A stretch of DNA of 53,023 bases from Actinomycetes bacterium (GTDB taxonomy: Bacteria > Actinomycetota > Acidimicrobiia > Acidimicrobiales > GCA-2861595): assembly GCA_023264975.1 (NCBI GenBank), contig JAHFUS010000012.1:9308-62330 (forward strand), read 5' to 3'. The position numbers and the translations under genes are program-made. The notes below the pieces were generated by a model that made no database searches, was not told the DNA's origin, and saw only the letters and a list, made by a program, of their open reading frames with translations. This document shows positions 1,660 through 53,023 of this stretch, piece after piece (within the stretch, counting starts at the first letter, position 1; each line of letters begins with the position of its first letter).

Positions 1660-2165
1660 ACCGCAGGTCAGCGGGGGTGCGGGGGTCTGGTTGGGGCAAG
1701 CGATGGGCCCGGCGTGCCAGATCCGTGCCAGAACGTGGCGGGTAGTTCTGGCACGTGCCAGCCACTCCCGGTCATCAGGGGTCACCGACTCACTGACCCC
1801 GTCGGCCGAACTCGGCACGTGCTCGTACTGGACGGAGCGGAAGACGGCCAGCGCTGCTCGTTCTACATCCGCCCAACTCCGCCGCAGCGAGAGGACGGAC
1901 GCCGAGACTCGGAACTGCTCTCCGGCGTGGCTCCAGACGATGTACGCCCCGAGGCTCGCGCCTCACATGGTCCCGGTAGACGGACGGCCGGCCTCAACCC
2001 TGCTCAAGCTGCGCGTCGACCTCCTCGCCACCTGACACTCTTGGCGATGCGCCGGCCGCGGTCGTGGCGTTGTGCCAGAAACTGCCGGACCCCGCGGGCA
2101 AGAGCGGGCGGTCCTGGCACGCCGCCGCCCACCTGGAGGTCGCCGTCCCGCCCCGCCGGCCGACG
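1656..2165. other. Element left end: arm-type repeats, no convincing gene
   Basis: The stretch between the tRNA and the first toxin gene contains GTGCCA repeats at 1714, 1725 and 1755 and the reverse TGGCAC at 1749. Several open frames cross it, but none has a family match or a convincing start. The left part is best read as the integrase-binding arm of attL. Confidence 0.6.
1714..1760. promoter_or_regulatory. GTGCCA arm-type sites, left end of element 1
   Basis: GTGCCA occurs at 1714-1719 and 1725-1730 (11-nt period), then TGGCAC at 1749-1754 and GTGCCA at 1755-1760. The first site is 55 nt from the end of the att repeat. The identical pair CGTGCCAGATCC-GTGCCAGAA recurs inside the right end. 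Repeated short sites flanking the core are typical of tyrosine-integrase arm-binding sites; their role here is inferred. Confidence 0.55.
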
Positions 2166-2795: not shown

Positions 2796-3932
2796 TCACG
2801 GGGACGGTGGGCGCAGGCCGGCCTCCTCGGCCATGGCGTCGAGTCCTTCGGCGATGCGCCGGTCGCGGTCGTCGGCGGCGTGCTGGTAGATCATCGCCGC
2901 CCGGGGGCTGGCGTGGCCGAGACGGGCCATCAGTTCCTTGGTCGTGGCCCCGGTACGCGCCGCCAGCGTCCCGGCCGAGTGGCGCAGATCGTGGAATCTC
3001 ATTCCCTCCAGGCCGGCGGCCCGGGCTGCCGGGAGCCAGACCCGCTGGCGGAAGTTGCTGCGCTCCAGCGGCGTGCCCTCCTCCGAGGAGAACACGTAGC
3101 CGTTGGCGTGAGCGCCGTACCGGGCCCGGTGGCACTCGAGCTCAGCCACCAGCACGGCGGGAAGCGCGATGGTGCGGCGCCCGGCGCGGCTCTTGGGGTC
3201 GTCCTCGATGACCTCCCCCGAGGCCAGGCGGAGGCGCTTGCGGCGCACGGCGATGCTGGCCGCGCCGAGATCGATGTCGTCCCAGCGCAAGGCGAACAAC
3301 TCCCCCTGGCGGAGCCCACCGAGGCCGGCGGCCAGGACGAGGGCTCGGTAGCGGTCCGGCACAGCGTCGGCCAGCGCCGCCAGCTCGGCCATGGTGGCGA
3401 AGCGCTGCTCCGGGTGGTGCTCCACCCCTCCGCGCTCGACCCGGCACGGGTTCTTGGCGATCCGGTCGTCGTTCACCGCGACGGTGAGCACCTGGCGCAG
3501 CCGGACGTAGGCCTTGGCTGCTACCGATGGGCTGTGGCGCTCGACCAGCGCGGCGTACCACTGGCGCACCAGTTCGGGCGTGAGATCGGTCAGGTCGACG
3601 GTGCCAAGGGCGGGCACGCCCGGGGCGATCACCGGGAGCACGTGGAGGCGCAGTTGGGCCTCGTAGATCTCCCTGGTCCGCTTGGCCAGCCGGGCGTGGC
3701 CACGGAGCCAGGCCCAGGCGTAGGCGTCGAGCGACACCCGGCCGGCCAGCGGGTCGACCCAGGCGCCCTTGGCCTGATCCGTCTCCACGCCGGCCAGCCA
3801 GCGGGCGGCGTCGGCCTTGGTCGCGAACGAGGTCGGGGCGGCGATGCTGCGCCCGCCCTCCACCTCGTAGCGGGCCTGCCAGCGGCCCGAGGACAGCCTG
3901 CGGACGTTTCCGAACTGGCGTCGCCGGGACAT
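2796..3932 (-). CDS. Tyrosine recombinase / integrase
   Basis: The protein has 378 residues. It has an N-terminal arm-binding domain (about 1-60), a SAM-like core-binding domain (about 65-160) and a catalytic domain (about 175-365). The active-site set is complete: R208 (GLRQGEL), H314-x-x-R317 (HDLRH), H340 (LGHAS) and nucleophile Y349 (AMIYQHA). It is read towards tRNA-Phe and should catalyse integration and excision between attL and attR. An excisionase-like gene lies 66 nt upstream. A C-terminal fragment of a close relative lies at 11789. Confidence 0.97.
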   Translation of the reverse strand: MSRRRQFGNVRRLSSGRWQARYEVEGGRSIAAPTSFATKADAARWLAGVETDQAKGAWVDPLAGRVSLDAYAWAWLRGHARLAKRTREIYEAQLRLHVLPVIAPGVPALGTVDLTDLTPELVRQWYAALVERHSPSVAAKAYVRLRQVLTVAVNDDRIAKNPCRVERGGVEHHPEQRFATMAELAALADAVPDRYRALVLAAGLGGLRQGELFALRWDDIDLGAASIAVRRKRLRLASGEVIEDDPKSRAGRRTIALPAVLVAELECHRARYGAHANGYVFSSEEGTPLERSNFRQRVWLPAARAAGLEGMRFHDLRHSAGTLAARTGATTKELMARLGHASPRAAMIYQHAADDRDRRIAEGLDAMAEEAGLRPPSP

Positions 3933-49535: not shown

Positions 49536-49567
49536 ATAGCTCGCCAAAATGGCGAGCTATTTACTCG
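49529..49567. terminator. 39-nt palindrome, copy 3 (inner stem changed with its partner)
   Basis: The arm CGAGTAAATAGCTCGCCA (49529-49546) pairs perfectly with 49550-49567 around an AAA loop. The outer 11 bases equal those of copies 1 and 2, but six inner bases differ on both arms so that pairing is kept. The TAA stop of the oxidoreductase (49533-49535) and the stop of dcd on the other strand (49561-49563) are both inside it. Confidence 0.82.
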
Positions 49568-50133
49568 GGAGTGCGGAAGTTCTCCGAGTAGCGGCTCGGC
49601 GTGGGGCCGCGCTGGCCCTGGTACTTGGACCCGGCGGCGGCCGACCCGTAGGGGTTGTCCGCCGGCGCGGTCATGCGCAGGAAGCTGATCTGGCCGATCT
49701 TCATTCCCGGGTAGATCGTGATGGGCAGGTTGGCCACGTTGGACAATTCAAGGGTTAGGTGGCCGTCGAAGCCGGCGTCGACGAAGCCGGCAGTCGAGTG
49801 GATCAGCAGCCCCAGGCGGCCCAGGCTCGACTTGCCCTCCAGGCGGGCCACCAGGTCGTCGGGCAGGCGCACCCGTTCCGACGTCGACCCCAGCACGAAC
49901 TCGCCGGGGTGGAGGATGAACGCCTCGCCCTCGTGCATCTCGACCAGCTCGGTGAGGTTCTCCTGGTCCTCCTTCACGTCGATGACCCGCATTGTGTGGT
50001 TGCGGAACACCCGGAAGTAGCGGTCGACGTGGAGGTCGACGGAGGACGGCTGGATGCAGCCCGGCTCCAGCGGGTCGATCACGATCCGGCCGGCGTCGAG
50101 CTCCTCGCGGATCGTTCTGTCGGAGAGGATCAT
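49561..50133 (-). CDS. dcd: dCTP deaminase, probably bifunctional (dUMP-forming)
   Basis: The 190-residue protein starts [17 protein letters not shown] and has [58 protein letters not shown] (catalytic Glu) and [15 protein letters not shown]. The HSTAG-F pattern and the C-terminus are like the mycobacterial DCD-DUT enzyme, which turns dCTP directly into dUMP for thymidylate synthesis. The last codons and stop are within palindrome copy 3. Confidence 0.95.
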
Positions 50134-50286
50134 GACGGCGGCCAGGCTACCTGGAGCGGGTCGGCGTCAGTCGGGAGGAGGCTTGCCCCCTAGTGGCACG
50201 CGGCCTCGACCCCCTGTTGCCAGGGAAGAGCATCAGCAAGGGCCAGCAGCCCTGTGACAAGGGCTTTGCGAGAGAGCGAGACGGAG

Positions 50287-50333
50287 AGCGGGCGACGAGA
50301 ATCGAACCCGCGTTCTCAGCTTGGGAAAAGCTG
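50287..50333 (-). tRNA. tRNA-Gly (TCC) 3' fragment, att-like
   Basis: On the minus strand, the anticodon arm (CAGCT-TTTCCCA-AGCTG, anticodon TCC), T-arm (GCGGG-TTCGATT-CTCGT) and acceptor 3' strand CGCCCGC are present. The D-arm and acceptor 5' strand are absent: upstream of the anticodon arm the sequence has no tRNA features. This is the usual trace of integration into a tRNA 3' half, and the island should extend to the right of the window. Confidence 0.7.
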
Positions 50334-50546
50334 GGCGGAGGCTGTTTTCGACAAGCGTGTAATTCGGAAACCCGCAGCTCAGCCGCTATTTCGACTGTCC
50401 GGCCGTTGCCGACCGAGGACGAGCCGCTGTTCGTCGGCGGCCGCTGACCTCCGGCTGTGCCGGCGTCATGGCCATGGTGCCCTTCGACCGGCGAACCCGT
50501 CTGTCGGGCCAGGCGCGAGGAGGCGGCCATCGGGCACTCTGTATCG

Positions 50547-50885
50547 ATGGTGGCGGCAAGGAACCAAAGAGGGCCGGCCCCGAAGCGCGGCCGGTCGCTC
50601 ATTGGACGGCGCCTATGGGCACCGAAGATGCGACGTCCCCGCCGGAAGTCGGCGCAGCTCGCAGTAGGGGTCGGCACAGTCGGCCTGCTCGTTGCCCTGC
50701 TCGTCGGGGCGGAGATAACGGACGCCGTGTTGGGGTGCGGATCCGTCGACCCAACCGATCCGGCGAACTACACCGAGGCGCAGATCCTGAACGACACGCC
50801 GACTGTCGCCCGCCAGTCCGAAGGGACCACCCGTCCGCTAGTGGCAAGGGACCAGGCCCGGCCACCAACGTCGGCGAAACGATGA
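50547..50885 (+). pseudogene. Membrane/lipoprotein-like gene broken after its N-terminal part
   Basis: From ATG 50547 the protein has a basic N-terminus, a hydrophobic segment (LAVGVGTVGLLVALLVG) and VLGCGSVDPTDPANYTEAQI, LNDTPT. This is the start of a small secreted actinobacterial family in which conserved Cys and Trp blocks normally follow. After LNDTPT the frame runs into unrelated sequence and stops at 50885. I see the gene as truncated or frameshifted. It is the first coding trace inside the tRNA-Gly island. Confidence 0.45.
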
Positions 50886-50906
50886 TGGTCACGGGCCGGG
50901 CTGAGG

Positions 50907-51254
50907 TCAAGCGCGACGATGACCGCTGGGTCGTCCCGTCGCCTCAATAGCGACGTCCTGGCCGAGGAGATCCTCGATCGAGACAGGCTCTTCGCAGTTC
51001 GGACAGGTGCCACCGATACCGGCCCGGCGCATGAAGGTCCCGCACTCCTCGCACCGCTGCTCGCCGACGGCCCGGGCGCCGCAGCCGTCGCATTCATAGA
51101 CGGTGATCGGCTTGCGGAACTGGTTCCTGGGCACGACGACGGGCGGCCGATCCTCGTCCCGGCGCCGTCGGTAGGCGGCCGCCCGGCACGCGTCGCCGCA
51201 GTAGCGCTGTCGACCGACCGGCGTGAACGGGCCCTGACAGACGGGGCAGGTCAT
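50907..51254 (-). CDS. Zinc-ribbon protein coupled to istB
   Basis: The 115-residue protein has several C-x-x-C pairs: CPVCQGPF, YCGDACRAAAYRRRRDED (a FCS/HTH-like zinc motif), YECDGCGARAVGEQRCEECG and TCPNCEEPV. It starts with ATG overlapping the istB stop (ATGA), so it is translated with the transposase helper. Zinc-ribbon genes are seen next to some actinobacterial IS21-type elements, but a role in transposition is not established as far as I know. It may bind DNA. Confidence 0.75.
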   Translation of the reverse strand: MTCPVCQGPFTPVGRQRYCGDACRAAAYRRRRDEDRPPVVVPRNQFRKPITVYECDGCGARAVGEQRCEECGTFMRRAGIGGTCPNCEEPVSIEDLLGQDVAIEATGRPSGHRRA

Positions 51255-52078
51255 CGTGACGCTGTCGTGACACGACGGGATTTCGCCGCCGGCGTAGCGG
51301 GGCCCGTGGTCATGCCCCCGGCCTTGCCAACTGAGGGTTTCTGGCGGTGGCGGTAACTTTCGCCGTCGAGCACGAGCTCATGGGCCGCGGACTGCAGCCG
51401 GTCGATGGCGGACTGGGCCAGGAGGGCGTCGGCCATCAGGCCCAACCACTCCATGGGCTCCCGGTTCGACGTGGTCACCGTTGCCGCCCGGCGGTGGCGC
51501 TCCACGATGACCTCGTAGATCTCGGCGGTGTCGGTGGCGTCGAGGGCGTGGAGGCAGAAATCGTCGAGGATCAGGACGTCGACCCGCAACAGCTTGCGCA
51601 CCTCGGCGTCATGGCTGTTGTCGAGCCGTGACGCCTTCAGGCGCTTGAGCAGCCGGTCGGTGCGCTCGAAGGCCACGCTGTAGCGGCGACGGACCGCGGC
51701 GTGGCCGAGGGCGGTGGCCATGAAGGTCTTGCCGACTCCGACCGGGCCCATGATGACCACGTTGTGGGCGGCCTCGACGAAGCGCAGCGAGCACAGCTCG
51801 TCCCACATCGCATGGTCGTAGGTGATGGCTGCAGAGTCGTCCCACAGCTCCAGGCGCATGGAGGCGTCGAGCCCGGCGGACTTGGCCCGCAGGGCGGCCG
51901 AGGCGCTGTCGCGTCGGGTCACCTCGTCGGAAAGGACCAGCTCCAAGAACTCGCCGTGGCTGAGCGATCGGGTCTTGGCCAGGGCCAGTCGTTCGGGCAG
52001 GGTGTCGAGGCAGCGGCCGAGCTTGACCTTGCGTAACAACGTCTTCAGCTCCGGCGAGATCGTGGGCGGTGCGCTCAT
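51251..52078 (-). CDS. istB: IstB-like transposition helper ATPase
   Basis: The 275-residue AAA+ protein starts at ATG 52078. The N-terminal helical domain has LKTLLRKVKLGRCLDTLPER. Walker A is MGPVGVGKTFMATALGH and Walker B is VDVLILDDFCLH; the sensor is VTTSNREPMEWLG. It loads the IstA transposase on target DNA in IS21 elements. Its start overlaps the istA end by 4 nt (ATGA). Confidence 0.93.
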   Translation of the reverse strand: MSAPPTISPELKTLLRKVKLGRCLDTLPERLALAKTRSLSHGEFLELVLSDEVTRRDSASAALRAKSAGLDASMRLELWDDSAAITYDHAMWDELCSLRFVEAAHNVVIMGPVGVGKTFMATALGHAAVRRRYSVAFERTDRLLKRLKASRLDNSHDAEVRKLLRVDVLILDDFCLHALDATDTAEIYEVIVERHRRAATVTTSNREPMEWLGLMADALLAQSAIDRLQSAAHELVLDGESYRHRQKPSVGKAGGMTTGPATPAAKSRRVTTASR

Positions 52079-52940
52079 GCGGCACCGCCGGTGGCGTCGC
52101 CGGCAACGGCCTGCGGCCGGGTGGTGGCGAAGTGCTCGTCCTCCCGGGAGAAGCGGGCCTTGCCCGCCGGCTCGGGGGCCGGAGGCGGCGCCGGTGCCTT
52201 GGCCGGCGCCGACTCGGCCCCCTTCTCCAGCATGCGGCCGATGAGCCCGACGCTGACCGCCTCGGCCTCCAGCGCCCGGGCACAGGCGGCATCGACGCGC
52301 TGGGCTCCCCAGCGCTTGACCAGGCCCAGCAGTGCGTAGACCTGGCGCATCTTGGTCCACGGCAGCGGGTGGTCGAGCACCGCAATGGCGTAGGCGCCGA
52401 CGGCCGGGCCGGCCTTGGCCGCCATGCGGGCCAGGGCGTCGAGGTCTCGCATGGCATAGGTGGTGCGCTCGGCCGGCAGGTCGGCGGGATCGGTGACCCG
52501 TCCGCCGGGGGCGGTGCGGGGATGGACCTTGACCAGGGCGCCACGGCAGAACACCCGCACCAGCGCCGAATCGGCGCGGACGTCGACTCGTTGGCCGATC
52601 AGGTTGCCCGGTATCGAATACAGCGCCCTGGCCACCTCGATGTGATGGTCCCGGTGCACCTTCGCGTTGGCGTAGATCGGCAGGTCGTAGGGCGTCGTCG
52701 GCGCCGGGGCCAGCCGGGGTGCCTCCTCGAGGGCGAACAACTCGGCAGGGCGGCAGGCGATGGTGCCGTGGATGCGCAGCCCGGCTCTGGTGGCACACCA
52801 CGTCTGCGCCCGGCGCTGGGCGTCGGCCAGGTCGATGAAGCGCTCCCCGGCGAAGAAGGAGCCCCGGACGAACGGAACGGTTCTCTCGACTCTGGGCTTG
52901 GCATGACCCGTCGATTGCGCCTGATCGGGCGGCTGGGCAA
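52075..52940 (-). pseudogene. istA: IstA transposase, 5' truncated
   Basis: The C-terminal about 285 residues are present: STGHAKPRVERTVPFVRGSF, FAGERFIDLADAQRRAQTW, LRIHGTIACRPAELFALEEA, then the beta-barrel block PYDLPIYANAKVHRDHHIEV and ARALYSIPGNLIGQRVDVRA. The N-terminal HTH and most of the DDE catalytic core, roughly 200-250 residues, are missing. The frame is closed upstream by a stop. The element can hardly transpose by itself. Confidence 0.85.
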
Positions 52941-52946
52941 CAACGG

Positions 52947-53023
52947 GTGCGGATCACGCACCCGTTCCACCCGCTTGCCGGGCGGGAGTTCGACCTGATG
53001 GTGCGCAAGAACAACTGGGCCGA
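52947..53023 (+). CDS. DUF5372-like protein, N-terminal start (cut by window end)
   Basis: The frame from GTG 52947 reads VRITHPFHPLAGREFDLMVR and KNNWA to the end of the window. This matches the start of the small DUF5372 family, which is often seen near transposase genes. Only 25 residues are visible. It is opposite to and abuts the truncated istA, so it belongs to the sequence into which, or beside which, the IS fragment was joined. Confidence 0.6.
   Translation, partial: MRITHPFHPLAGREFDLMVRKNNWA

Follow-up and report, generated by a model that had tools for sequence, protein, structure and literature searches.

What does a partial tRNA gene near the end of a contig tell us about the DNA that surrounds it? 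We addressed this question for positions 50287-50333 of the window, by which we mean the whole analyzed stretch of 53,023 nucleotides (G000:C72:9308-62330, where G000 is the genome of the window, C-numbers are its contigs and other G-numbers are relatives). The initial annotation had read these positions as the 3' half of a tRNA-Gly(TCC) marking the edge of an island that, by analogy with tRNA-Phe, should run to the right and end with a complete tRNA-Gly outside the window. The feature in question is the following:

50287-50333, minus strand: 3' half of tRNA-Gly(CCC), with a 40-base core at 50288-50327, the discriminator at 50287 and two extra T at 50328-50329

That a tRNA 3' half lies on the minus strand here holds up. 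A 32-base probe taken from the half matches two places in the genome at up to 3 mismatches and zero in the reversed control. Neither ARAGORN nor Rfam at gathering score calls a tRNA at 50287-50333; in the window they report only tRNA-Asp and tRNA-Phe, and the half itself gives a sub-threshold tRNA match of 17.3 bits. The isotype has to be corrected from TCC to CCC: the 40-base core shows a single-base difference from the intact tRNA-Gly(CCC) of G001, G003 and G004, while the variable region and T arm of the genome's own intact tRNA-Gly(TCC), on contig C6, are unlike the half. The stretch CAGC-TT-TTCCCAA-GCTG contains two T more than in the relatives and in a second copy on contig C12, and the anticodon loop reads as TCC because of this insertion. 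We also considered the half as a piece of structured RNA and rejected this candidate, the fold of 50134-50400 being no better than that of shuffles (z 0.61). In itself the half is ordinary, tRNA 3' ends being classic docking sites, and the fragment is probably a leftover docking site, of a well-known general kind, for mobile DNA that integrates into a glycine tRNA gene.

The left side of the half provides the natural reference for its orientation.

49561-50133, minus strand: dcd (dCTP deaminase; TIGR02274, 5.9e-68), conserved neighbour of tRNA-Gly(CCC)
50216-50237, plus strand: possible remains of the tRNA 5' half, degraded but natively oriented, from shuffle tests

We searched 59 genomes for dcd and found a match in 55, giving 30 loci of which 29 come from other genomes. 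ARAGORN places an intact tRNA-Gly(CCC) near dcd in 14 of these 29, in every case divergent from dcd with its 5' end toward it, and the gap between the two is 31-39 bases in G001, G003 and G004. The half in the window is inverted compared to these relatives: its 3' end faces dcd. The Fe-S oxidoreductase on the other flank of dcd is kept in G001 (88%) and G003 (83%), and the change therefore sits to the right of dcd, with dcd in place and the half turned. Such an orientation, opposite to 14 of 14 relatives, requires an inversion or other rearrangement and not a plain insertion, which speaks against the simple island picture first drawn for this locus. Between dcd and the half, positions 50216-50237 resemble a tRNA 5' half with a score reached by 2 of 300 shuffles (as the best of six comparisons) and by 2 of 2000; this likeness is at most suggestive of a remnant of the native 5' half. 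G004 carries a complete tRNA-Gly(CCC) roughly 1 kb away from dnaB; none of the ORFs listed for that interval was recognised as an integrase, and the tRNA is oriented to dcd differently from the half in the window. As the other neighbour of the half in this genome, dnaB was rejected, since it is on contig C89 with no tRNA-Gly near.

To the right of the half, the DNA is of a different nature.

50334-50400, minus strand: arm upstream of the core, common with the start of contig C12 by sequence match (element side)
50457-50950, plus strand: frame-broken gene, of which the part 50802-50934 recurs at C137:356-490 beside istB
51251-52078, minus strand: IS21 istB (PF01695, 2.7e-49)
52075-52905, minus strand: IS21 istA, 5'-truncated, C-terminal part only (PF22483)
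52902-53023, plus strand: DUF5372 gene, of which only the start lies before the contig stops (PF17342, 1e-5)

The broken gene, the IS21 remnant and the DUF5372-like gene had all been proposed from the letters alone, and reading frames together with PF01695, PF22483 and PF17342 bear them out. With the element-side arm, IS21 and DUF5372 located there, an island right of the half is likely. The arm is 85% identical to contig C12 over 65 bp, or 87% over 117 bp including the core. A 22-mer of the arm occurs at up to 3 mismatches in 4 of 397 genomes, with an exact match only in its own genome. We rejected the arm as a widespread repeat, since an exact search with its 19-mer gave no match in genome_contigs or viral_contigs, where the own genome may be excluded. 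Contig C137 repeats the order seen in the window (C137:356-1101), a piece of the broken gene followed by istB (79% and 85%), without the stretch that holds a zinc-ribbon-like ORF (window 50907-51254). The same contig has two tyrosine recombinase matches.

The second copy of the half opens contig C12 (C12:1-120). Its core is identical to that of close relatives and its upstream arm is as in the window. Next on the contig come genes for a SIR2-like protein, a ParA-like ATPase and a transposase, and a cluster for conjugation. The conjugation genes include the SCO6880 family (8.2e-77), a VirB4-like match (7.7e-25, below the cut-off of the model) and a TrbL_4 match also below cut-off, and the contig has a Prim-Pol gene as well. 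C12 carries type IV secretion genes, as expected of an integrative and conjugative element; no relaxase family was found among the 16 C12 proteins scanned from this incomplete contig. The SIR2-like gene, whose best PADLOC match is ThsA (1e-20), overlaps the ParA-like ATPase gene (C12 937-2900), and it is possible that these two genes just inside the element are a defence pair.

We then examined the core as an attachment site across the order. The 40-base core is present in 193 of 298 genomes, and among the matches listed at least 10 genomes carry more than one copy on a single contig, without exception on one strand and 113 bases to 104 kb apart. Among 20 stretches with cores taken for comparison, nine genomes, all other than that of the window, have a complete tRNA and a half on one contig; each time the half is found 3' of the complete copy, which stands at the other end on the same strand. 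The window holds the corresponding displaced 3' fragment, the mark of a tRNA-targeted integrative element. Across the order, the tRNA-Gly(CCC) 3' half is an attachment-site core of integrative elements.

Two short sites, TGACC[AT]G (P) and C[AT]GGTCA (Q), form an inverted pair around the core. P is found 25-80 bp upstream of 12 of the 18 halves with enough flank, plus C12, mostly 50-52 bp ahead of the core, and before 2 of 25 complete tRNAs. Of 24 complete tRNAs, 14 have Q about 13 bp past the core, as do 5 of 19 halves. Halves that have both sites would be tandem junctions. The C12 half has an exact P and a Q with one mismatch. The window offers the following:

50375-50381, minus strand: TGAGCTG, a degenerate P site with one mismatch to TGACC[AT]G, displaced to 54 bp ahead of the core and weak alone
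50255-50261, minus strand: CTTGTCA, a possible degenerate Q site with one mismatch, displaced to 26 bp past the core and weak

Two single loci were noticed besides. In L190 (G010:C11, 1523-1636) a complete tRNA-Gly(CCC) is followed by an inverted part-copy of its 5' half and, 113 bp farther along, by a second 3' half. In L093 (G002:C64, 6080-7000) direct repeats GGTCACG stand directly ahead of the tRNA, and the interval between integrase and tRNA contains what we take to be DUF433 and PIN-like toxin-antitoxin genes.

Which enzyme would act on such a core? The tRNA-Phe island of the window provides a lead.

2799-3932, minus strand: tyrosine integrase encoded in the tRNA-Phe island, of the family that also occurs beside tRNA-Gly(CCC)
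1664-1671, plus strand: Q site CAGGTCAG, a motif match 8 bp after tRNA-Phe

The analogy with this island was apt, as its integrase belongs to the family found beside tRNA-Gly(CCC). We aligned ten integrases, from beside tRNA-Gly(CCC) elsewhere, from contig C4 and from the tRNA-Phe island, and nine of them are 46-61% identical to the first. Scanning genome_contigs for the family, we took the best 80 relatives, which are Actinomycetota by title apart from one labelled Hyphomicrobiales; the closest named relatives among these 80 are mostly Acidimicrobiia, which suggests this class for the genome of the window, and Desertimonas flava is a cultured example. In 60 of the 80, the integrase has a tRNA 3' end facing it at a distance of up to 600 bp. 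These 60 tRNAs correspond to Gly in 38 cases (TCC 22, CCC 15, GCC 1), Arg in 12, Ala in 6, Thr in 2 and Glu and Val in 1 each. The downstream site occurs at an offset of 4-20 from the tRNA in 47 of the 60 at up to one mismatch and in 26 exactly, compared to 0-4 at other offsets; at 23 other tRNAs of the same loci it occurs 5 times (up to one mismatch) and once (exact). The integrase may bind this downstream site. The literature listings consulted gave no description of the TGACC[AT]G / C[AT]GGTCA site. In L196 (G126:C90) the integrase frame runs into an opposite-strand tRNA-Gly, so the attachment core encodes the integrase C-terminus. The C4 integrase was considered as the missing enzyme of the window and rejected: it is a family member without a core nearby.

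No complete tRNA-Gly(CCC) was recovered from the assembly. The genome has 44 Rfam tRNAs, with Gly(GCC) and Gly(TCC) among them and no intact tRNA-Gly(CCC). A 30-base probe for its 5' half, at up to 3 mismatches, has no match in the whole genome, and a profile search for PF00589 found no integrase right of the fragment or on contig C12. Because contig C72 stops at 53023, the right end of any island cannot be confirmed. The assembly is a draft of 139 contigs, and at least 12 cores among the matches listed begin no more than 250 bases into a contig; cores being so often at contig starts, the loss of a junction to an assembly gap is to be expected.

We consider it probable that the half is one attachment junction left by an integrative element of tRNA-Gly(CCC), since decayed and rearranged. 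An element, or a tandem array, with a tyrosine integrase would have recombined inside the tRNA-Gly(CCC) 3' half. Carrying its own 3' half, it would have restored the tRNA at one end and displaced the old 3' half to the other. The junction would later have been mutated and rearranged and would now face dcd the wrong way, with element DNA extending from 50334 rightward past the contig end. What we observe is the core, the arm in common with C12, a matching architecture and integrase in other genomes, and the conjugative element beside the second copy in this genome; we infer the inversion, the identity of the element at the right and a tRNA restored in an assembly gap. Counting against a junction are the lack of a complete tRNA-Gly(CCC), of a 5' half (up to 3 mismatches) and of an adjacent integrase in the assembly, the orientation opposite to all 14 relatives, the one-mismatch state of the window's own P and Q sites and the C4 family member without a core.

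One alternative explanation is an assembly chimera, with dcd wrongly joined to an element end from elsewhere. The number of contigs, the repeated cores and arms at which contigs break and the conflict in orientation all speak for it, but the join would have to fall in the roughly 150 bp from dcd to the half, where neither the core nor the arm repeated at C12 lies, and this same gap may contain the native 5' half remnant; we regard a chimera as rather unlikely. Slightly less likely still is the unrearranged case, where the half is the displaced end of a single intact island that finishes rightward in a complete tRNA-Gly. It accounts for the mobile-type DNA (IS21, DUF5372) after the half and for the arm in common with C12, but not for a half that is reversed beside a dcd still in place next to its Fe-S oxidoreductase, when dcd and tRNA-Gly(CCC) are divergent in every relative with both. 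In favour of a simple pseudogene, with tRNA-Gly(CCC) decaying and no mobile element involved, Gly(TCC) is intact and in principle able to read GGG by wobble rules. This reading is very improbable, given that the place of the 5' half is taken by an arm which recurs next to the second half, on C12 with its conjugation genes.

In this genome as a whole, PF00589 has 45 matches. Of the 44 tRNAs, 18 have a match up to 3 kb away on the 3' side and 3 have one on the 5' side; neighbouring tRNAs share integrases, and the distinct tRNA-side integrases are therefore fewer than 18. Among the 41 tRNAs with enough flank, 16 carry a C[AT]GGTCAG-type site (up to one mismatch) 8-16 bp beyond their end, with the window's instance in 1656-1671, compared to 0-3 of 41 at control offsets. 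The site shows no significant association with an adjacent integrase in this genome (9/16 vs 9/25, p = 0.33), and part of the downstream sites could be relics, or the motif could serve another purpose. When integrase candidates were scored in 98 genomes, up to a ceiling of 31 per genome, G000 and G117 had at least 31 each and G013 had 30. It is conceivable, and we propose it tentatively, that a large actinobacterial integrase family uses a fixed inverted site pair, TGACC[AT]G / C[AT]GGTCA, around cores that vary by tRNA, and that this genome is near-saturated with tRNA elements or their relics. Family integrases beside tRNA-Gly, Arg, Ala, Thr and Phe have a common short site at a nearly fixed distance, which yields a testable rule. 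If the integrase binds the site, the rule separates what the enzyme keeps from what changes on moving to a new tRNA, and islands and relics become findable in broken assemblies.

How does this locus compare with known systems? The tRNA-gene genomic islands catalogued in Islander (PMC4383910) split their target tRNA, restore the gene with island sequence, leave the displaced fragment at the other end and use a tyrosine integrase. The displaced tRNA fragment and the split target are alike here; unlike in those islands, the displaced fragment alone is assembled, and it is decayed and inverted relative to its neighbour. The AICEs of PMC3218068, which reports none in Acidimicrobidae, the probable group of this genome, are actinobacterial elements with a tyrosine integrase, integration at tRNA 3' ends, tandem integration and Prim-Pol among their replication proteins. 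Our elements resemble them in the actinobacterial host, the tyrosine integrase, the tRNA 3' end target and Prim-Pol, and differ in the VirB4/SCO6880-type conjugation genes of C12. Closest at hand is the tRNA-Phe island of the window itself: unlike the Gly half it has a complete tRNA and its integrase present, and it is alike in the integrase family and in the C[AT]GGTCA site just past the tRNA.
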